Made by a program: the position numbers and the translations under genes. The notes beneath the pieces are model-generated. The model did no database searches. It was not told where the DNA came from and worked only from the letters and a program-made list of their open reading frames with translations. Positions 7,411 to 64,000 of a DNA stretch of 64,000 nucleotides are shown here, piece after piece. Position 1 is the first letter of the stretch. Each line of letters starts with the position of its first letter. Origin of the DNA: Bacteroides acidifaciens (GTDB lineage: Bacteria > Bacteroidota > Bacteroidia > Bacteroidales > Bacteroidaceae); contig NZ_CAEUHO010000001.1 in NCBI RefSeq assembly GCF_903181435.1, forward strand, positions 1,922,001 to 1,986,000. The letters are read 5' to 3'.

Positions 7411-10059
7411 TTAATTATAGGTTTCACGAATATGTTTGAGTCTCAATGGCAACTCTTCCCCTTTCTTTATTTGGGGAGAAGTGATGACGACCGTTTTACG
7501 CTCTCCGGGCAAAAGGTCGAAGAAGTTGTCGCTGAAACGGGCACCCTGCAAAGGTATTTCGATAAAGACATCCTTTGCCAAAGCAGGAGAAAGAAGAGTC
7601 AGTTCGCATTTGCCGTCTGTCTGCTTCATCTTGCAGGTGATGGTCGTTTCGGGCAGGAGCAGGTCTTTGGTCTTCTCGAAGAAATAGACTGTTTCGGCTA
7701 CCGTATGACCGGATTTGTCTTTCAAGGTCAGTTGCATAAAGCAATGGCGGAGTGCTTCCGAAAGCCGTTTTTCCGCAGAAGATTGAGACGTTTCCGAGGA
7801 TTTACGCTCTATTAAAGAGAGCAAATCGCTGGGCTTCGCCTTGTACACACATTTGGAAGTATTTGCCGGAATCGACAAGGATTTCAGTTGTATCGGCTTT
7901 CCTGCCTTTTTCCCTTCAAAGTCTGTTATCTTCATTTCCAATGTCATCTTCTCCATCGTATCGAGACGGTCTGAGAGAAGATAGACGCACAGGCTGTCAT
8001 TCTGCCGGATGGGGTTGATATGGATAGGGGCGAAAGCTCGTTTCGCCTGATAATGCAGGGCTTTCCAGTTGCCGTAATAATCAATGCCCGACCAAGAGAC
8101 AACAGGCCAACTGTCGTTCAATTGCCAGTATAATGTACCCATACAGTAGGGACGGTTGCGACGGTGGGCTTCCAGTCCGTGGCGCATGCCTTGTCCTTGT
8201 AATACAAGTCCGACATAAACGAAGTCCTCAAATTTCTCGGGTACGATATAATCACGTTCCATATAAGTGCGAATCAAGTCATTGCCGATGCTGCTCTTTT
8301 GATGAGCGTTCATCACTTCCGATTCGATTTCGTAATCTTCGGGAGATGCGAATGTGGCAATGGTTTTCATTTCGGGGAAAGACTGGAAACCGAATTCGCT
8401 CATGAAACGCGGCAAATCGGTGTCCAATGATTCAAAGGTTTTCTTTCCGTACCAGACGCCCCAGTTGTGGCTATCCCCTATTCCCCATGATTCGGGACGT
8501 CCCCAGTTGGCGAGATAGGGAGAGCTGTGGATGTAAAAGCGGTCTGCGTCGAGCTCTTTCACTTTGGCGGGAAGCAACTCGCGGAAGAGTTTGTCGTAGC
8601 CGGTCATCATTTCCTGGTAGATTTCCGGAGTGTATTTTTTCTGATAGCCCCAGTATTTCAAGGCTTCGAGTATTTCGTTGTTACCGCACCACATGGCTAG
8701 CGAAGGGTGGTTGCGGAGACGGCGGATGTTGTAGCAGGCTTCCGCCTCTACCCTCTTCAGGAAGGTGGGGTCGGACGGATAAGGGGTGCAGGCAAACATG
8801 AAGTCCTGCCATACCAGTATTCCGTTCTCATCAGCCAGATTGTAAAAGCGGTCGTCTTCGTAAGTTCCGCCGCCCCATACGCGGATGACGTTCATGTTCG
8901 CTTCCTTGATGTCGCGGAACAATGTCTGATAGCGTTCGGTAGTCACATTCGTCAATAGCGCGTCCTGGGGGATATAGTTGGCTCCCTTGGCAAACATCGG
9001 AATACCGTTTACTTCAAAATAGAAGGATTCTCCGTCCGCGTCCTTTTCATTCACCAGTCGGACGGTGCGGAGTCCGATTCTGTGGGATTGTTCAGCTACA
9101 ACGTTGCCTTCGGTGATGATTTGGGCGGAGAAGTCGTATAAGGTCGGAGCTCCCCAGCCGTTCGGCATCCAGCGTACCGGTGAGACAACTTCCGTAGGGA
9201 TACAGATGCGGTTGATTCCGGGTTGCAGGGTGACTGTTTGGCTCGTGGCGGATTCCTGTTCCCCTTCGAGCGAGGTGTTTATTTTTATTTCTGCTTGAAG
9301 CGGATGGGGAAGTATGTTGTTTATTTCCAATTCATTGGATAGCTTCGCTACCTGGTCGGTCAGAGATAGTTGCTTCACGTGGTAGTCGCTGATTGAGGCG
9401 GCATCGTAGAAACGGATGGTTACCGGACGCCAGACGCCGCTGGTCACCATGCGGATTCCCCAGTCCCAACCGTAGCTGTAAGGGGCTTTGCGGGAGAATA
9501 CACTCAGGTGTTTCTCGTGATGGTCGTTGTCGGCGGGATAGTTGAATCCGTTGGAAGCGTATTGAGGCAATGTCTGCCGGATGGGCGAATGAAAATATAT
9601 GTGAAGGAGATTTTCTCCGGAACGAAGGTATTGTTTTACGGGGATTGTATAGCCGACGAACATGTTGTCGGCTTTAAATAGCAGTGCTCCGTTGAGGTAG
9701 ACGTCAGCGTAGGTGTCGAGCCCTTCAAAGGTGAGTTGGGCGTCATCACGTTTCAGTTGGTCGGGGGTGATTGTGAAAGCCGTCCTGTATTCCCAGTCTT
9801 CATTTTCTATCCATTGGATTTTCTGTTCGTTGGTACCGTAGAAGGGATTGGGAATGAGGTCGTGATGAATAAGGTCCTGATGTACCGTGCCGGGCACCAC
9901 GGCTGTGCGCCATATCTCTGTCCCCACTTGGGAAAACTCCCAGCCTGTGTGCAAAGTTAAAACTTCTGAATTGTCATTGCTCTGGGCATAGGCCATGCTG
10001 CAACAGCAGAGTAATCCACACGCTATTTGAGCTTTTTTTCTGATTAAATTAATCATCAT
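7411..10059 (-). CDS. GH2 beta-mannosidase, secreted
   Basis: This 882-residue protein would cleave terminal beta-mannose, for example from the core of N-glycans after hexosaminidase trimming. It has a GH2 sugar-binding domain (WEFSQVGTEIW onward), an immunoglobulin-like domain, and a catalytic barrel with the acid/base motif MWCGNNEILE and the nucleophile motif MSEFGFQSFP. I chose the ATG at 10059, where a signal peptide begins (MMINLIRKKAQIACGLLCC, cleavage near AYAQ). The ORF runs in frame to 10191, but those 44 residues are not signal-like and cross an intergenic repeat. Confidence 0.9.
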   Translation of the reverse strand: MMINLIRKKAQIACGLLCCCSMAYAQSNDNSEVLTLHTGWEFSQVGTEIWRTAVVPGTVHQDLIHHDLIPNPFYGTNEQKIQWIENEDWEYRTAFTITPDQLKRDDAQLTFEGLDTYADVYLNGALLFKADNMFVGYTIPVKQYLRSGENLLHIYFHSPIRQTLPQYASNGFNYPADNDHHEKHLSVFSRKAPYSYGWDWGIRMVTSGVWRPVTIRFYDAASISDYHVKQLSLTDQVAKLSNELEINNILPHPLQAEIKINTSLEGEQESATSQTVTLQPGINRICIPTEVVSPVRWMPNGWGAPTLYDFSAQIITEGNVVAEQSHRIGLRTVRLVNEKDADGESFYFEVNGIPMFAKGANYIPQDALLTNVTTERYQTLFRDIKEANMNVIRVWGGGTYEDDRFYNLADENGILVWQDFMFACTPYPSDPTFLKRVEAEACYNIRRLRNHPSLAMWCGNNEILEALKYWGYQKKYTPEIYQEMMTGYDKLFRELLPAKVKELDADRFYIHSSPYLANWGRPESWGIGDSHNWGVWYGKKTFESLDTDLPRFMSEFGFQSFPEMKTIATFASPEDYEIESEVMNAHQKSSIGNDLIRTYMERDYIVPEKFEDFVYVGLVLQGQGMRHGLEAHRRNRPYCMGTLYWQLNDSWPVVSWSGIDYYGNWKALHYQAKRAFAPIHINPIRQNDSLCVYLLSDRLDTMEKMTLEMKITDFEGKKAGKPIQLKSLSIPANTSKCVYKAKPSDLLSLIERKSSETSQSSAEKRLSEALRHCFMQLTLKDKSGHTVAETVYFFEKTKDLLLPETTITCKMKQTDGKCELTLLSPALAKDVFIEIPLQGARFSDNFFDLLPGERKTVVITSPQIKKGEELPLRLKHIRETYN

Positions 10060-10141
10060 AGTGGGGGTATTAGATATTAATGGGGTCAAAGATATTATTT
10101 TTTCATCAATTTCCCCTGATAATTTAACAAAATATAGATTA

Positions 10142-10198
10142 ACGTCAGCGCGATAGAAGTTCGCCCGAAGGAGGAGAACCGAATAGTACAACTGACGT
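10142..10198. repeat. Intergenic inverted repeat with a shared Bacteroides-type segment
   Basis: ACGTCAG at 10142-10148 is complementary to CTGACGT at 10192-10198. Between them lies gcgatagaagttcgcccg followed by aaggaggagaacc, closely matching the segment at the IS-interrupted hairpin near 1440-1470 and 2945-2958. This is a small dispersed intergenic repeat between the esterase-mutarotase gene and the mannosidase gene. Its role is unknown. Confidence 0.5.
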
Positions 10199-10223
10199 CA
10201 GATTACAAGCAGCATTGTTTTTA

Positions 10224-13200
10224 TTACTCGATTGTTATCCTGACTATTTCGGGAGTGCGGACACCCGGCTTCAATTCTCCGTTTATATTGTAATAAGTTT
10301 TATCCCATCCTGTCAACGCCGCTCCGGCACGGGCTGTTTGCGGGGTACGGGCGACTTCCTGCCATGTGTTTTGACTAATATTATAGATTAATATACGGTC
10401 ATTGAATTTGTACCATTCGGCTGGATGAAGAAGATAGTCCTTTTGGGGCTGTCGGAGAGCTGCGAGGAAGATATCCTTATTCACTCCGCCTGTACAGAGA
10501 ATCAGGTTTTCATTGATGGCGATGGCTGTTCCGCCACCCAAGGAGATGGTTTCACCGTCGTTTCCTGTCGGGGTAGCTATGGGAGTCCATTGCCGGGATG
10601 CGGACGAGTAGCAATAGCCATCGGTGGAAAGTGTTGCCGATTTGCCATCGGTGGAAGCAGCGAATCCGCCCCATAGGAAGATACGGGCTTCACCGTCTTT
10701 ATGCTGTCCGGCACAGACGGCTTGCGTCCGTGCATCTCCGGGAAAATCCGGTAACTCCTGCCAACCCCTCTCAAGATTATCCAAATCGAGACAAAGGAAT
10801 GAGTTGGAAGGTTTGCCGTTTTTGTTGCCGCCTGCAACAAACAGTTGCCCGCCTGTCAATGTACCACACATGTTGTCTAGTGTATAAGGCAAAGCTGGAA
10901 GAGTTTCTATCTTGACTTTCCCTTGCTTTGCTGCCTTCGGATTGTCCTCAAAACTGATTTTATAGACAGATGTCAGCGCATCTTTTCCATCCGTTCCCCC
11001 TATGCAGATGATACCGTCCGGACAAGATACGGAAACTCCGTAAGCGGAAGCGACCGGCAACTCTCCTACCTTACGCCAGGCAAGTACCGTATCGGGATTC
11101 ATCGTTGCCGCATAAATTCCCCGATAGAATTTCTTCTTTCCACCATCGCTGGCAGGAACACCGGGAAAATTGCAACCGCCCGCCATCAGCAGATTGCCGC
11201 CCAGGATTCCTGAGTAGCAGGCGGAAACGCCTAGTTTGAAGCCTTTCTCCGATTGGGGGAATCCTTCCATTTTCTGCAAGTGAATGTCCGTAATGAACCG
11301 TTCGGGTGCTTCTGCACGAAAGGTGGAAGCCGGCAGGCCTGCTTCATTCACCAGGTTTGCCCGTGTGAAAGGCTGCCAACCGTAGCGGACGTATCGCGGA
11401 TGCTTTACTTGTTCACTATATACTTTTATCCGACCGTCTGTTATCTCGGCAACGGCAGGGTAATAAATGCCGTCCGTCTCGGCGACCTCAAACGTGCGCA
11501 AAGGATGACCGTCCGAACTCTTTAAGCCTTTGCCGTAATTGAAAGTTATATATACGGCATTTTCACGGAAATCGGCTTGGTGAAATAACGGGCCGGATGG
11601 CAGTATATGGTTCATGCCATACGTTTTATTCAATGCCCAACGGGCGAGACGTTCGCCAATCGGTTTCTTATTTCTAGGGTGTACGTCTAATGAGTCGCCA
11701 TTATCACTAGATACCGCCATACCCGTATTCGGTATTTCGTTCATCATCCTGCGCTGGCTGTCACGGAACCACGGCCAGGAAGGACGGGCTACACTGGAAA
11801 GCTGAACGTAGTAGAACGGCAGTTCCTCATTCTCCCAGTTCTTTCGCCAACTGCTTATCAAGAGTTTGAAGAGTTTCTCGTGCGCTTTGTAATTATGGGC
11901 GTTCGATTCCCCCTGATACCAAATCACACCTTTGACCGGATATTGCGCTAACGGACGAATACCGGACTCGTACAAATAACAAGGTTCGTAAGGGTGGCGT
12001 TGGTATTTATCTTCCGATTGTTTGATGTTTAATGCAGCGCGTCTGCGTACCCAGTCTTGTATAAAGTCATTATGTGTCCAGTCTTTCAATATAGCCGGAA
12101 AGTGGTATTCCAACGTGTTCCGGTCTATCCATGATTCGGTAGGCGAACCGCCGATTGCATTGCATATCAACCCTACCGGAACTTTCAAGCTATCCCGCAA
12201 CATCTGGCCGAAATAAGATGCTATCGCCGAAAAACGGGCGGCATTGTCGGGAGTACAGGCTTGCCATTCTGTGTCTTTATAATATTGAAGATGATTCAGG
12301 GAGTCGAGGACGGAAGCGTCCCATTGCACGGCGTTTGTATGCCAACGGGCTTTCATGTCATACAAGCGCAACTGTTCGTCGGCAACTTGAGGAATGTCTT
12401 TTTTGTCGGTAGTGGTCTGGCTCAACATAAATGCCATGTTCGACTGACCGGAGCATAGCCAGACTTCTCCTGCCAGGACGTTGGTGTATTTCAAGGTTCT
12501 TTTTGAGGTAGAGATTACCAGCGTATAAGGACCGCCTGCTTTCAACGGTGATAATTTCACCGACCATTTCCCGTCCGGTGTAGTTTTTGTAATCCACTGC
12601 TGACGGTCTATGCGGACTGTTACTTGTTCTCCCGCATTGGCTGTTCCCTGTATCAGCAAGGGGGTATCACGTTGGAGAACCATATTATCCGTGTAAAGTG
12701 GGGATAATTTCAAGCCGCCATACTCTCCGGTTATAGCCGAATAAACTGTTTTTGCAATGATAGATGCCCCTTCGGCAGTAGGATGAACGGCATCCGGCAG
12801 CAAGAAAGGATAAGGATAAAGCGGTTCGTGGAAATCTATCAACTGCACACCGGCATAACGTGCTACTGTTTCGATAGCCGTCTGTATCTCGCCGTGCCAG
12901 TCACGGGTTCCCGAAAGGAAACGGTTATGGCGGTCGGCAATCGGGGTCATTCGCGCTATGATAATCCGTACGCCGGGATTGGCTTTGCGGAATGTATCAA
13001 TCAGACTCAGATAGTTTTTCACAAAGAAATCACGGTAGTTTGTCCAGTCGCGGGGGTCGGTATCATTGATTCCCAAATGAATGACGACAATGTCTCCTGC
13101 AAAATCCAATGCTTTCTGATATTCTTCTTGCCGGGTATAGGGGCGGTGTCCCTGATTGAGCAGGGTAGCGCCGGGCTTTCCGAAATTTTCGACTTCATAA

Positions 13201-47372: not shown

Positions 47373-47457
47373 GGGTGGTTAGCTCATCGGTTAGAGCTTT
47401 GTGTTGCGCAACCAATTATCATAATTGAGAGAGGTTCGACTCCTCTACCACCCACCA
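47373..47457 (+). tRNA. Phage tRNA-like gene 1, unusual anticodon region, CCA encoded
   Basis: The acceptor GGGTGGT/ACCACCC, D arm GCTC-ATCGGTTA-GAGC, T arm AGAGG-TTCGACT-CCTCT, discriminator A and encoded CCA are all good. The stretch between D and T stems is 32 nt, about nine more than a class I tRNA. The best anticodon arm (stem TTGTG/ACCAA, loop TTGCGCA, anticodon GCG) has two mismatches. A CAATTA-TCA-TAATTG hairpin follows. Identity is uncertain: it may be a degenerate tRNA-Arg or a non-decoding mimic. Confidence 0.65.
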
Positions 47458-60521: not shown

Positions 60522-60594
60522 CGCGGGTTAGAGCAGTGGGCAGCTCGTCACTTTGACTTGGTGAAGGTCAGCGGTTCGAATCCGTTACCCGCAA
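60522..60594 (+). tRNA. Phage tRNA-like gene 3: initiator-type body with GAC anticodon
   Basis: A complete class I cloverleaf: acceptor CGCGGGT/ACCCGCA, D arm GAGC-AGTGGGCA-GCTC, anticodon arm TCACT-TTGACTT-GGTGA, variable AGGTC, T arm AGCGG-TTCGAAT-CCGTT, discriminator A, no encoded CCA (CTA follows). The first acceptor pair is C-A and the second D-stem pair is A-T, both marks of bacterial initiator tRNAs, but the anticodon is GAC (Val) and base 37 is T. The three G-C pairs of initiator anticodon stems are missing. Confidence 0.75.
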
Positions 60595-60625
60595 CTACTT
60601 AATTATTAATTTAAAAGACACGATT

Positions 60626-61015
60626 ATGAACATTCTAACGCTTAGTATTAAGCAAAAGTATTTCGATGAAATTTTAGCAGGTAAAAAAACTCATGAATAC
60701 CGCGAAATTAGACCTACCAATGCAAAAAAGTACATAACCTACTTATGTGGTGGTAAAGAATATAAGGCTGATGAAGAATTACCTGAAGAGGGTGAGATAG
60801 AATTAAAACCTATCCAGTACGATGCCATAAAACTGCTAACTGGTGAATATAGGGGTAAACGTCCGTATATTATAGTTGAGGTGAAAGGCGCAGAAGCATC
60901 AATTCTCACAGATGATGAAGGTAACGATGTTGTTTACACCTATAAGGGTGAAGAATATCTTGCCGCTCAAATGGATTATACTTTAGGCGAAATACTAGAG
61001 AAACATATAGATTGA
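60626..61015 (+). CDS. ASCH-domain protein
   Basis: This 129-residue protein begins MNILTLSIKQKYFDEILAGK and KTHEYREIRP, the ASCH signature (I-K-x-x-Y-x-x-x-I-x-x-G-x-K-x-x-E-x-R). It is a PUA-like fold that may bind RNA or modified nucleotides. It has the ACACGATT leader and follows tRNA-like gene 3 by 31 bp. Confidence 0.82.
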   Translation: MNILTLSIKQKYFDEILAGKKTHEYREIRPTNAKKYITYLCGGKEYKADEELPEEGEIELKPIQYDAIKLLTGEYRGKRPYIIVEVKGAEASILTDDEGNDVVYTYKGEEYLAAQMDYTLGEILEKHID

Positions 61016-61087
61016 ATTGTTTAAACCTAAAATTTGATTTGCTGAGTCGCAAGAAGAATTAACAGAGTAGCCGGACCGCGCAGAAAC

Positions 61088-61216
61088 ATGAATGGAGCAG
61101 GTGCAGGCGGTAGATTGGTTGCCAACCGTAGAGGTACGGCTAGTGCCACACAGTTAGGTTCACGTAGACAACGTTATGCTGATTTACGTGTGTCATTGGG
61201 TATGTCTGGAGGTTAA
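61088..61216 (+). CDS. Arg-rich short paralogue A
   Basis: From the ATG at 61088 this gives 42 residues ending SLGMSGG. The frame is open upstream to a TGA at 61043-61045, and the extra 14 codons (VARRINRVAGPRRN) match the basic N-terminus of four other copies (61909, 62163, 62432, 63407). Copies share the upstream YTGAGTY sequence and a C-terminus close to LGLSNG. It is Gly- and Arg-rich and probably binds nucleic acid. Real start uncertain. Confidence 0.55.
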   Translation: MNGAGAGGRLVANRRGTASATQLGSRRQRYADLRVSLGMSGG

Positions 61217-61218
61217 CC

Positions 61219-61893
61219 ATGAATAAGGTAGAACAAACGAACCGGTATATAGACCTCATTCGGGTAAAATCGAATGAGGCTTTACTGTTTTTATCACTCG
61301 GTAAAGACTCGCTTGTTCTGCTTGATTTAATCTATCCGAAGTTTGACCGGATTGTTTGTGTGTTTATGTACTTCGTCAAGGACTTGGAACACATAAACCG
61401 TTGGATAAACTGGACTAAAGCCAAATATCCTAAGATAGTGTTCATTCAAGTGCCACACTGGAACCTTACATACATTCTCCGTGGCGGATTGTATTGTGTC
61501 CCTAATCCAAAAGTTAAACTGTTGAAGTTGACAGATGTAGTGAAAGCTATGCAGCTCAAATACGATGTCTATTATACCTTCTTAGGCATGAAGAAAGCCG
61601 ATGGCATGAATCGCAGACTTATGCTGAAGGGTTATGAAGAAAATGGATATGAGAATAACGGCATGGTTTACCCTTTGGCTGATTGGAATCAGAAAGACAT
61701 TCTCGCTTACATGAGACAACATAATCTTCCAGAACCAGTGAGATACTCACTAAAAGCCAGTTCTGGAGTTGGTTTTAATCTTGATTGTATGCTTTGGATG
61801 GAAAAGAATTACCCACAGGACTTACAGAGAATTTACAAAGTGTTTCCAATGGCTGAAAGAGTGATTTGGGAACACCATAATAAACAAGATTAA
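61219..61893 (+). CDS. PAPS-reductase-like PP-loop protein, IbrA-like
   Basis: This 224-residue protein has the PP-loop LSLGKDSLVLLDL (about residues 25-37) of the ATP-pyrophosphatase/PAPS reductase superfamily, plus TFLGMKKADGMNRR and PLADWNQKDILAYMRQH, typical of DNA-phosphorothioation DndC and phage IbrA-type proteins. A ParB-like gene follows 750 bp later, as in IbrA-IbrB. It may activate sulfate or modify nucleic acid; no partner cysteine desulfurase is seen. Confidence 0.82.
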   Translation: MNKVEQTNRYIDLIRVKSNEALLFLSLGKDSLVLLDLIYPKFDRIVCVFMYFVKDLEHINRWINWTKAKYPKIVFIQVPHWNLTYILRGGLYCVPNPKVKLLKLTDVVKAMQLKYDVYYTFLGMKKADGMNRRLMLKGYEENGYENNGMVYPLADWNQKDILAYMRQHNLPEPVRYSLKASSGVGFNLDCMLWMEKNYPQDLQRIYKVFPMAERVIWEHHNKQD

Positions 61894-61932
61894 TAGGAGA
61901 ACAACTGAGTCAAAAACAGAAGAAAAGGTAGA

Positions 61933-62145
61933 ATGAAAAGCGCTGCTGATATTGGAGTACAGACAAACCGTTTGAGCCGTGCAGCAGATGGTAATCCTAC
62001 AAGACAAGCAAGGATTAACAGTATTGGCGGTGCCATGTATCGTAACCTTAGCCGTTTGAATTATGCAAGAAACGGAAGCGTATACCAACAGTATTCAAGA
62101 GCCGCCCGTCAAGGACGTAATAGTCTAGGATTGAGTAACGGATAA
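61933..62145 (+). CDS. Arg-rich short paralogue B
   Basis: From ATG 61933 this gives 70 residues ending NSLGLSNG. Upstream, the frame is open to TGA at 61906-61908 and reads VKNRRKGR after it. TAGGAGA lies 5-9 bp before the CTGAGTC junction, not before the ATG, which suggests initiation upstream of 61933. The protein has many Arg, Asn and Gly residues and no hydrophobic core. Confidence 0.6.
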   Translation: MKSAADIGVQTNRLSRAADGNPTRQARINSIGGAMYRNLSRLNYARNGSVYQQYSRAARQGRNSLGLSNG

Positions 62146-62204
62146 ATAAAAGGAGGTATTGAGTCAAAAGAATATCTAAAAGAACTGCCAGATATAATAC
62201 TACA

Positions 62205-62381
62205 ATGTTTCCCAATACCAGTGAAGCCGGAAGACAGTATGCTGTCGGAAACAGAGCAGCCAACATGATTCGTGCAAATTTGCAAAATCAGGGAAATAGC
62301 AACTTTATGAGGAATTATAATCGTATTATTCGTGCAAGAAACAATATGCTAAGTTCTTCGCGTGGGTTGAGTAATGGATAA
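62205..62381 (+). CDS. Arg-rich short paralogue C
   Basis: From ATG 62205 this gives 58 residues (MFPNTSEAGRQYAVGNRAAN onward) ending RGLSNG. The open frame runs back to TGA 62160-62162, adding VKRISKRTARYNTT. AAAGGAGGT lies just before the TTGAGTC junction. No ribosome binding site precedes the ATG, so the true start is probably near 62163. Confidence 0.6.
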   Translation: MFPNTSEAGRQYAVGNRAANMIRANLQNQGNSNFMRNYNRIIRARNNMLSSSRGLSNG

Positions 62382-62431
62382 AGAAAGGAATTTTTGAGTC
62401 AAAAAAAACAAAATAATAGGAGGAAAGCTGA

Positions 62432-62644
62432 GTTAGAAGAAGAACAAAAACAGCAGAAGAAATAGGAAGACAAACGATACGTGCTCTTGCTACTAATAAT
62501 CAAAATGTATCACGTGGTGGCATAAATAGACAAGGTAGAATACTTCGTGCAAATGCAGGTGCATTGCTTCCGATTTATCAAAGGCAAGGAAATAGAGCCG
62601 CAGTAAATGCGATGCGTTCACGTTTGGGGTTAACTAATGGATGA
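62432..62644 (+). CDS. Arg-rich short paralogue D, no usual start codon
   Basis: The frame is open from TGA 62429-62431 for 70 codons: VRRRTKTAEEIGRQTIRALA onward, ending RLGLTNG. It has no ATG, GTG or TTG near its beginning, yet AGGAGG lies 4 bp before the CTGAGTT junction. A short remnant of another copy (GTCAAAAAAAAC at 62398) precedes it. Conservation with copies A, B, C and E argues that the region is translated by an unusual start or a frameshift. Confidence 0.55.
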   Translation, partial: VRRRTKTAEEIGRQTIRALATNNQNVSRGGINRQGRILRANAGALLPIYQRQGNRAAVNAMRSRLGLTNG

Positions 62645-63386
62645 TATGGAATTGTCAAAGTACATAAAGAGTAAGTCGGTAGAACTTAATCGTTCTGCCA
62701 TTCACTTCGCTGATTATAATCCCCGAAAACTATCCGATGAATCACGTAAGACATTGAAGCGTGGTATCAAAAAATTCGGATTGGTCGGTGGAATTGTCGT
62801 TAATAAGCGTACAGGTCTTACGGTAGTTAGCGGACATCAACGTTTAACTGTTATGGATGAATTGCAGAAGTTCCCCGATAATGACTACCGTATCCGTGTC
62901 GATGTCATAGATGTGGACGAAAAGCAGGAAAAGGAACTCAATATTCTGATGAATAACCCGAACGCTCAGGGAACATGGGATTTCAATGCTCTTGCAAGGA
63001 TTGTTCCCGACATTGACTGGAAAGATGCCGGTCTGACCGATGCTGACTTGAACATGATTGGAGTTGACTACCTATTACAGACCGAAGAAGAAAACTCTAT
63101 TGCGGACGCTCTGTCTGATATGATGGCGCCAGTTGCCGAGCAGAAAGAAGCTGATAAAGCCGCTAAACAGTTGGAACGTGCCGAAAAGATTGCCCACATG
63201 AAAGAGGTCAAGCAGCAGGTGAAAGAAAACGCACAGAAGCAAGCCGAGAACATGGATGCTTATGTAATGCTTTCTTTTGACACATACGAAGCAAAAGCAG
63301 CTTTCTGTGAAAGGTTCGGATATGATCCTGATATAAAATTTATAAAGGGAGAGGTCTTTGATGAACAAGTAGAAAGAATTGATTAA
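62637..63386 (+). CDS. ParB/Srx-domain protein, IbrB-like
   Basis: This 249-residue protein begins with a ParB-type nuclease/Srx domain: IHFADYNPRKLSDESRKTLK, FGLVGGIVVNKRTG, TVVSGHQRLTVMDEL (the GH-R motif), then a helical acidic-basic C-terminal part (about residues 150-230) that may be coiled. Together with the PP-loop gene at 61219 it matches the phage IbrA-IbrB pair. It overlaps copy D by 8 bp. Confidence 0.85.
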   Translation: MDDMELSKYIKSKSVELNRSAIHFADYNPRKLSDESRKTLKRGIKKFGLVGGIVVNKRTGLTVVSGHQRLTVMDELQKFPDNDYRIRVDVIDVDEKQEKELNILMNNPNAQGTWDFNALARIVPDIDWKDAGLTDADLNMIGVDYLLQTEEENSIADALSDMMAPVAEQKEADKAAKQLERAEKIAHMKEVKQQVKENAQKQAENMDAYVMLSFDTYEAKAAFCERFGYDPDIKFIKGEVFDEQVERID

Positions 63387-63454
63387 TTTTTAGGGAGGAA
63401 TGCTGAGTTAGAAAGAAAACATATAGTCAGCTATATCAACAGTCAAGACGAATA

Positions 63455-63640
63455 ATGTACAACGCAGGAAGACAATACGGATTAGGCTCTGCAAGGCAAA
63501 GGAACATAAGAGATAAGACAAAGTCCATAATGGAAAGATACGGTGCAAGAATAGATAGTTATTTTGCAAAAAGAGGAATTGACGTGTATGGAAACAAGCT
63601 AATCTCTCACCGTGTATATATGGGTAATAATAACGGATAA
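63455..63640 (+). CDS. Arg-rich short paralogue E
   Basis: From ATG 63455 this gives 61 residues (MYNAGRQYGLGSARQRNIRD onward) ending YMGNNNG. NAGRQYGLG parallels EAGRQYAVG of copy C. The open frame extends back to TGA 63404-63406 (VRKKTYSQLYQQSRRI). AGGGAGG lies before an ATG-CTGAGTT sequence at 63400 whose own frame stops after three codons. Confidence 0.6.
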   Translation: MYNAGRQYGLGSARQRNIRDKTKSIMERYGARIDSYFAKRGIDVYGNKLISHRVYMGNNNG

Positions 63641-63646
63641 TTGATT

Positions 63647-64000
63647 ATGACAAAAAGTGAATCTCAAAACAAAAAAGGTAAAGGGGGAAGAAAGCCTAAG
63701 TTTGACTATACAAGCGAAGACTTTCTTTCTCTCGTGGAATCGTATGCCAAAAAGGGATTCACAGATAAGGAGATTGCCCATGCTATTGGATTATCGCCAC
63801 AAAAATTTAGCGAAAAGAAAAGTGCATACAGTGAATTAAGTGATGTCCTCTCACGTGCGCGTTGTGCGATAAATTCCCTTGTGCGCGCCAAATTTCTTGC
63901 AATGGCTCTTGGTGGCATAAAAACTAAGAATACCACAGTTCGGAAGTTACGGGATAGAGATGGCAATCTGACAGGCGAAGAAGAAGTGCAAGTTGTAGAA
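63647..64000 (+). CDS. Terminase small subunit-like protein (partial)
   Basis: The right edge cuts this gene after 118 codons. It starts MTKSESQNKKGKGGRKPKFD, then has a helix-turn-helix region (GFTDKEIAHAIGLSPQKFSE) and a helical stretch (RARCAINSLVRAKFLAMALG), the plan of phage terminase small subunits that bind packaging sites. The TTGATT leader precedes the ATG at 63647. The late packaging genes should follow outside the window. Confidence 0.72.
   Translation, partial: MTKSESQNKKGKGGRKPKFDYTSEDFLSLVESYAKKGFTDKEIAHAIGLSPQKFSEKKSAYSELSDVLSRARCAINSLVRAKFLAMALGGIKTKNTTVRKLRDRDGNLTGEEEVQVVE

Follow-up and report, generated by a model that had tools for sequence, protein, structure and literature searches.

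The locus described here raises the question of how a set of short phage genes can be translated when they open without an ordinary start codon. It lies on contig NZ_CAEUHO010000001.1 of Bacteroides acidifaciens, in a stretch of 64,000 nucleotides (positions 1,922,001 to 1,986,000 of the forward strand; hereafter the window), and consists of five paralogous genes for small basic proteins (mini-genes A to E) and a transfer RNA (tRNA) gene 451 bases upstream of copy A, the sole tRNA found in this region by ARAGORN and Rfam. Comparison with related viral loci suggests that this phage tRNA very probably starts translation of the mini-genes at its cognate non-AUG codon. It would be a phage-encoded initiator tRNA with an anticodon other than CAU, here GAC, so that the start is at GUC or GUU, and such a dedicated initiator would explain the unusual start of the mini-genes.

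The five copies and a remnant were located where the preliminary description had placed them (Table 1). All six sites in the window start at YTGA-GTY (Y, C or T), copy D has no ATG, and GGAG or GGAGG stands before four copies (B, C, D and E) and not before A, in agreement with what had been reported. The claimed invariance of YTGAGTY held within the window and broke down in relatives, where the base before GA was T, C or A; a few copies there also had no G at -2, and the part nearly always kept was A-GTY. The motif by itself was not enriched (32 in the window on both strands, 32.7 expected). Six of its occurrences lay on one strand inside 2.4 kb, with five heading frames whose similarity to relatives begins there, and this clustering is not chance.

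Coding ahead of the ATG, which had been proposed from the window alone, was borne out by homologous copies, as these differed mostly at codon position 3. For copy E, codons 2-17 (to the ATG) of 13 distinct sequences showed 0.038, 0.065 and 0.231 differences per site at positions 1, 2 and 3, and the 30 bases upstream of GTY showed 0.335, 0.197 and 0.318 by phase. The corresponding values were 0.186, 0.137 and 0.326 for set A1, 0, 0.171 and 0.286 for set B and 0.061, 0.061 and 0.303 for set K, with most differences at position 3 in each, while the short set A2 (codons 2-4 only; 0.264, 0.429 and 0.460) gave no clear pattern. The substitution pattern indicates that the mini-genes code from GTC or GTT, upstream of any ATG. 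Among 23 public relatives of copy E, 11 were exactly 61 residues long, which is the length from the internal ATG, and the two of these that were inspected, P0005 and P0015, begin at that ATG. The AlphaFold2 model of copy E (pLDDT 90.3) has two long helices (residues 6-24 and 29-55) and a short one, and translation from the ATG (residue 17) would truncate the first predicted helix. The model of copy A was poor (pLDDT 55.7).

ARAGORN placed the tRNA at 60522-60595 and labelled it as tRNA-Val, and Rfam RF00005 scored it at 51.4 bits. Its anticodon, in the loop UUGACUU (bases 32-38), reads GUC and GUU, which are both codons at which the mini-genes of the window begin. Two marks of initiator tRNAs were present: C1, the usual base 1 of an initiator, stands opposite A72 and forms no Watson-Crick pair, and the D stem carries A11:U24. 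An unpaired 1:72 and A11:U24 are named as transformylase determinants in a passage of a review (PMC4611024), which prints G1 for base 1. Both were also found in the initiator of Bacteroides mediterraneensis, the host of a relative, whose elongator tRNA-Met and tRNA-Val(UAC) carry C11. An alignment of 18 rows (17 phage tRNAs and one host tRNA-fMet) showed A11:U24 in all rows and an unpaired 1:72 in 17 (C.A, U.U, A.A, C.C, C.U and G.A). The other stems covary, with the structure paired in 94.2% of cells and a covariation score of 0.601 compared to 0.187 for shuffled alignments. Base 37 of the phage tRNA is U, a position occupied by a purine in 51 of the 52 distinct tRNAs of the host. The sequence departs from an elongator tRNA-Val(GAC) in having no Watson-Crick 1:72 and, by the pattern of the host elongators inspected, in having A11 instead of C11:G24 and U37 instead of a purine. 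Compared with the bacterial initiator tRNA-fMet(CAU) of hosts or phages, the tRNAs of this group share the open 1:72, A11:U24 and a similar D arm, but they have a GAC, AAC, UAC or GGU anticodon, U37 and an anticodon stem with no run of three G-C pairs. Phage records were also searched by BLAST with the tRNA of one relative, giving 49 records; among the matches listed (20 of 49), seven were annotated at the tRNA site, each as tRNA-Met. Some relatives (loci carry L numbers) have tRNAs in which T loops such as GGCGGAG replace TTCGAAT and the D loops are changed (L012:8384-8458, L020:2192-2264, L037:3057-3130); these were overlooked by ARAGORN and may form the elbow contact by different means. An Asn(GTT) tRNA directly follows the initiator-like tRNA in L023 (8714-8788) and L028 (7324-7398).

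Anticodon and start codon were found to change together in relatives, with GAC accompanied by GTC or GTT, AAC by GTT, UAC by GTA, GGU by ACC or ACT and CAU by ATG. Copy A was searched on its own, independent of the ParB-like gene and of the tRNA, which yielded 79 distinct copy-A genes, and the tRNA class in this recount was taken from the sequence. A tRNA with the anticodon GAC, AAC, UAC or GGU lay upstream of 64 distinct copy-A genes, of which 63 had the cognate start: 51 GTC and one GTT among 52 with GAC (four of these tRNAs were missed by ARAGORN and confirmed by the model R1), eight GTT and one ATG among nine with AAC, GTA in the only one with UAC (two contigs, L363 and L365) and ACC in both with GGU (L373, L374). 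The one copy with a CAU tRNA started with ATG (L382). Where no tRNA was found on the contig, nine of ten copies had ATG, called by rule or by eye, and one had GTC (L355); the model R1 found no tRNA in the tRNA-less copy-A slices or in the ten entire virus records they come from, which may themselves be fragments. One locus listed as 'none seen' in the recount, L385, has an ATG copy A and a CAU tRNA 7 kb off on the same contig. The recount also covers L375 (called 'ACT' by rule but ATG when judged by eye), L359 (ATG, with a motif match that is not a tRNA), L371 (ATG, with the odd loop) and two genes with no upstream sequence covered, L317 and L372.

The paralogues switched as a set, to ACC or ACT in L373/L374 and to GTA in L363/L365. 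For the paralogue counts each locus was assigned its tRNA class manually, with GAC unless otherwise indicated, and a class-blind rule picked the start codons; 13 hand corrections followed, 12 of them in mini-genes of L009 (two), L040, L045, L319, L320, L327, L329 (two), L373 and L374 (two) and the last in copy A of L375. After hand correction, 40 GTC and 17 GTT were counted among 57 mini-gene paralogues of GAC loci, and seven GTT and two ATG among nine of AAC loci. GGU loci had seven ACC (two in frame-broken copies) and two ACT among nine, and UAC loci GTA in both. The ratio of GTC to GTT differed between GAC (90:18) and AAC (0:15) with a Fisher p of 1.5e-10, kinship ignored. Loci lacking the tRNA yielded no mini-gene paralogues.

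The sequence before the start codon was examined in 86 contexts, a set on which the search itself imposed G(-2) and A(-1) and which includes about six internal false sites; G stood at -5 in 75 and C at -4 in 73, and G was never at -3. Elsewhere -2 was variable and -1 stayed A (CA-GTC in L319, L320 and L327; TA-GTT and AA-GTT in L329). The start codon is almost always preceded by A, with which U37 is able to pair. The junction in GGU loci is GCTGA-ACC and bases 37-38 of the GGU tRNA are UC, so that GA-ACC would give five Watson-Crick pairs. None of 12 ATG-started copy-A genes had GA before the ATG. A pairing of GC at -5/-4 with tRNA bases 40-41 was rejected, as it fits the GAC tRNAs only; GC persists in the GGU and UAC loci though these bases differ, and it would therefore have some other role. 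GGAG was found upstream of mini-genes other than copy A in 38 of 50 cases in GAC loci, six of six in GGU, two of two in UAC and none of five in AAC loci (rule-called starts only), upstream of 39 of 306 other ATG frames of at least 200 codons, and upstream of one of 62 copy-A genes with an alternative start. The strong Shine-Dalgarno sequences before B, C, D and E (61896-63398) belong to a phage of Bacteroidia, and ribosomes of Bacteroidia are reported in a passage of PMC9976891 to be blind to such sequences unless they are without bS21.

In the proposed mechanism the tRNA would be charged with valine, or with threonine in its GGU version, because the valine and threonine synthetases read the anticodon, and it would be formylated because its 1:72 end is open. 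It would enter the P site with IF2 and pair with the start codon and the preceding A, through U37 with A(-1) and often also through U38 or C38 with G(-2), and this longer pairing may stand in for the absent three G-C pairs of the anticodon stem. Valine or threonine as first residue, together with a role for the longer pairing, is considered moderately likely. The broader reading is a natural private initiation, in which a drifting initiator anticodon (GAC, AAC, UAC, GGU) carries with it the start codons of a whole paralogous family, with valine or threonine first and a signal of four or five bases read via U37 and base 38 instead of the three G-C pairs, and on balance it is favoured. With such a private start codon the mini-genes would be produced only while the phage tRNA is present. 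Its purpose is possibly the control of timing or, as prompted by a passage of PMC10264068, possibly production while toxins such as VapC cut the host tRNA-fMet.

Several observations weigh against initiation by the phage tRNA. Locus L355 has a GTC start yet no tRNA on its 21.9-kb record; its twin, L386, lies in a genome bin that has the tRNA on a different contig. L032, L033, L034 and L046 have an AAC tRNA but an ATG copy A, and in L370 and L371 the tRNA at the same place has an 8-base anticodon loop (GTGGCTTT) and the genes of L371 look ATG-started. Two mini-like genes with ATG occur in L330/L331, and copy E has a relative with an ATG start, P0007, which may or may not be accompanied by such a tRNA. 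Two paralogues of L374 read CG-ACC, with G rather than A before the start. A U1-A72 combination, able to pair, is present in the tRNA of L382 and, as judged by eye, in that of L329. Three consecutive G-C anticodon-stem pairs, said in a passage of PMC4611024 to occur in all initiator tRNAs, are absent (the stem in the window is UCACU/GGUGA), and are present in the CAU tRNA of L382. The isolated tRNA sequence also folds weakly (z -1.37, with 22 of 200 shuffles equally stable). The assumption that every tRNA-bearing locus uses its tRNA for copy A was rejected, as it fails in L032/L033/L034/L046 and in L370/L371. In the former four loci the ParB-like gene and the one after it start with GTT. In L034 this gene (9987-10740) and the next gene of 149 aa (10758-11204; a weak LPD3 match below the Pfam cut-off) both have GTT starts behind AGGAGG, and among 87 distinct ParB-like frames only that of L034 is without an early ATG, besides one truncated and one apparently frame-broken record. 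These two starts suggest that the private start is not confined to mini-genes.

The phage tRNA could alternatively be an ordinary elongator tRNA-Val for codon supply or escape from host anticodon nucleases, with the host tRNA-fMet starting at the near-cognate GTY or at a later codon. The label given by ARAGORN agrees with this, and altered-loop phage tRNAs are known as a defence evasion according to a passage of PMC10264068; however, the open 1:72, A11:U24 and U37 do not, and neither do the ACC/ACT starts found exactly with the GGU anticodon, GTA with UAC, or ATG in nine of ten loci without a tRNA, and an elongator is thus judged very unlikely. Complementarity beyond the anticodon, with U37 and base 38 opposite A(-1) and G(-2), together with the unusual T and D loops of some tRNAs, would also suit a tRNA-like RNA that pairs with the GA-NNN site as an antisense-like regulator, initiation taking another route. 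Such a regulator is at odds with the kept initiator marks, the CAU version with ATG at the same place in L382 and the lack of any other visible start in copies without an in-frame ATG, and appears less probable still.

From the window alone, the preliminary description had offered an unusual start, a +1 frameshift right after initiation or a function at the RNA level. The unusual start is now strongly supported and tied to a tRNA that had gone unmentioned, while the frameshift did not survive the comparison. A start at CTG or TTG, or re-initiation at TGA, with a subsequent +1 shift to the frame of GTY would draw on the YTG-AGT of every window copy, with TGA before GTY, and on the Shine-Dalgarno sequence of four of them. 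Many relatives have CGA or AGA in place of TGA, with neither YTG nor a stop, the start becomes ACC or ACT in GGU loci, with the junction GCTGA-ACC, and the link to the tRNA anticodon is given no reason. Re-initiation and frameshifting fail because TGA is not conserved, the junction having no conserved stop or shift site, and there is next to no chance that they apply.

For the distribution of the initiator-like tRNA, 51 viral loci were collected via the ParB-like gene. ARAGORN found a tRNA in 38 of them (34 GAC and four AAC) and the model R1 added three (L012, L020 and L037). In L001, L024, L029, L035 and L041 the contig starts near or inside the ParB-like gene, and L047-L051, which have distant ParB genes, had no tRNA by the model R1 and no mini-gene. 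A specific tRNA pattern matched in 37 viral contigs and 13 genome contigs; by eye the latter were eight real tRNAs, all in genera of Bacteroidales, and five chance matches. The tRNA was present in three of 399 sampled genomes of the family of genome G001, as judged by eye from seven pattern matches. The spacing of the AAC pattern misses the known AAC tRNA of L034, and its eight loci (L289-L296) are outside the analysis; loci from a first, too loose tRNA pattern were left out. The isolated phage BS-TP2 (L218:12051-12765) carries the tRNA and a GTC copy A; its public record leaves the tRNA unannotated and has an internal ATG as the start of gene 53. On a tree built from 76 rows of the PAPS-like neighbour gene, in which some long branches leave details unsure, the anticodon label has to change 15 times; AAC requires three changes, possibly a single gain and two losses, and GGU and UAC are placed among GAC rows. 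Judging from these sequences, the coupling of anticodon and start codon was not made by a single event.

All 22 aligned mini-proteins end in NG. Pfam gave no family above the cut-off for any of the five mini-proteins of the window, PHROGs gave one weak match among the five (copy A, E 0.018, no assigned function), and the model of copy E had no structural match at E 0.001 in PDB or BFVD. The number and kind of mini-gene paralogues vary among loci, which fits the earlier suggestion of a unit that is itself spreading. At the place matching the remnant of the window, L007 has a full mini-gene after copy C.

The left part of the window is bacterial chromosome with genes of Bacteroidota type (SusD, TonB receptor, glycoside hydrolase 20), while the phage region, with AAA and helicase genes, reaches beyond the right end at 64000. 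Near that end, the mini-gene cluster lies ahead of a frame at the place of the BS-TP2 gene preceding the large terminase. The ASCH-domain gene (PF04266, E 6e-5, 24.1 bits with a cut-off of 21.2) is also present in BS-TP2, and its product possibly has an RNA-binding role together with the tRNA. A tRNA-Arg(GCG) at 47373-47457, near the left side of the phage region, is a possible attachment site.

Table 1. Features of the initiator-like tRNA and mini-gene locus, in window coordinates.
Feature	Position	Strand	Start or anticodon	Product	Shine-Dalgarno sequence	Basis or remark
Initiator-like tRNA	60522..60594	+	GAC (60555-60557)			ARAGORN, Rfam, alignment with relatives and host tRNA-fMet
ASCH-domain gene	60626..61015	+	ATG			Pfam PF04266; between tRNA and copy A
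Mini-gene A	61046..61216	+	GTC	56 aa	none	
PAPS-reductase-like (IbrA-like) gene	61219..61893	+	ATG			PF01507, E 2.3e-9
Mini-gene B	61909..62145	+	GTC	78 aa	GGAG, 61896-61899	
Mini-gene C	62163..62381	+	GTC	72 aa	GGAGG, 62152-62156	
Mini-gene remnant	62398..62436	+	GTC	12 codons after the start		
Mini-gene D	62432..62644	+	GTT	70 aa	GGAGG, 62419-62423	no ATG
ParB-like gene	62637..63386	+	ATG in the window			phrog_620, E 2.6e-24
Mini-gene E	63407..63640	+	GTT	77 aa	GGAGG, 63394-63398	

Initiator tRNAs are generally regarded as having the anticodon CAU and being charged with methionine. An Escherichia coli initiator given a GAC anticodon can reportedly start with valine at GUC, according to work from around 1990. 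Engineered initiator tRNAs with altered anticodons, of which a passage of PMC13232202 names the GUA/UAC and UAG/CUA pairs, likewise start with a changed anticodon at the matching non-AUG codon; these are laboratory-made, whereas the phage system would be natural, with start codons changed along with the anticodon. The altered-loop phage tRNAs of PMC10264068 also have an unusual anticodon loop, but in the passage concerned they are proposed for elongation under tRNA cleavage, while the tRNA considered here would act where translation of a few phage genes begins. Viruses also offer a natural case of non-AUG initiation in the intergenic internal ribosome entry site of dicistroviruses (PMC4132737), but that system is eukaryotic and a folded RNA replaces the initiator tRNA. 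No natural pair of a non-CAU initiator and its start codon was found in the parts seen of the open-licence PubMed Central literature, outside which most subscription papers lie, and as far as found a tRNA and a start codon changing together have been reported so far only in engineered systems.

If an initiator anticodon and its start codon have repeatedly switched in step in nature, the start signal would prove able to evolve as a pair. Such a system would be a ready source of orthogonal initiators for gut Bacteroidales, and it would account for genes missed or truncated in annotation, such as the 61-residue relatives of copy E and gene 53 of BS-TP2. It would also raise the question of why a phage places a few small basic proteins behind an initiator of its own.

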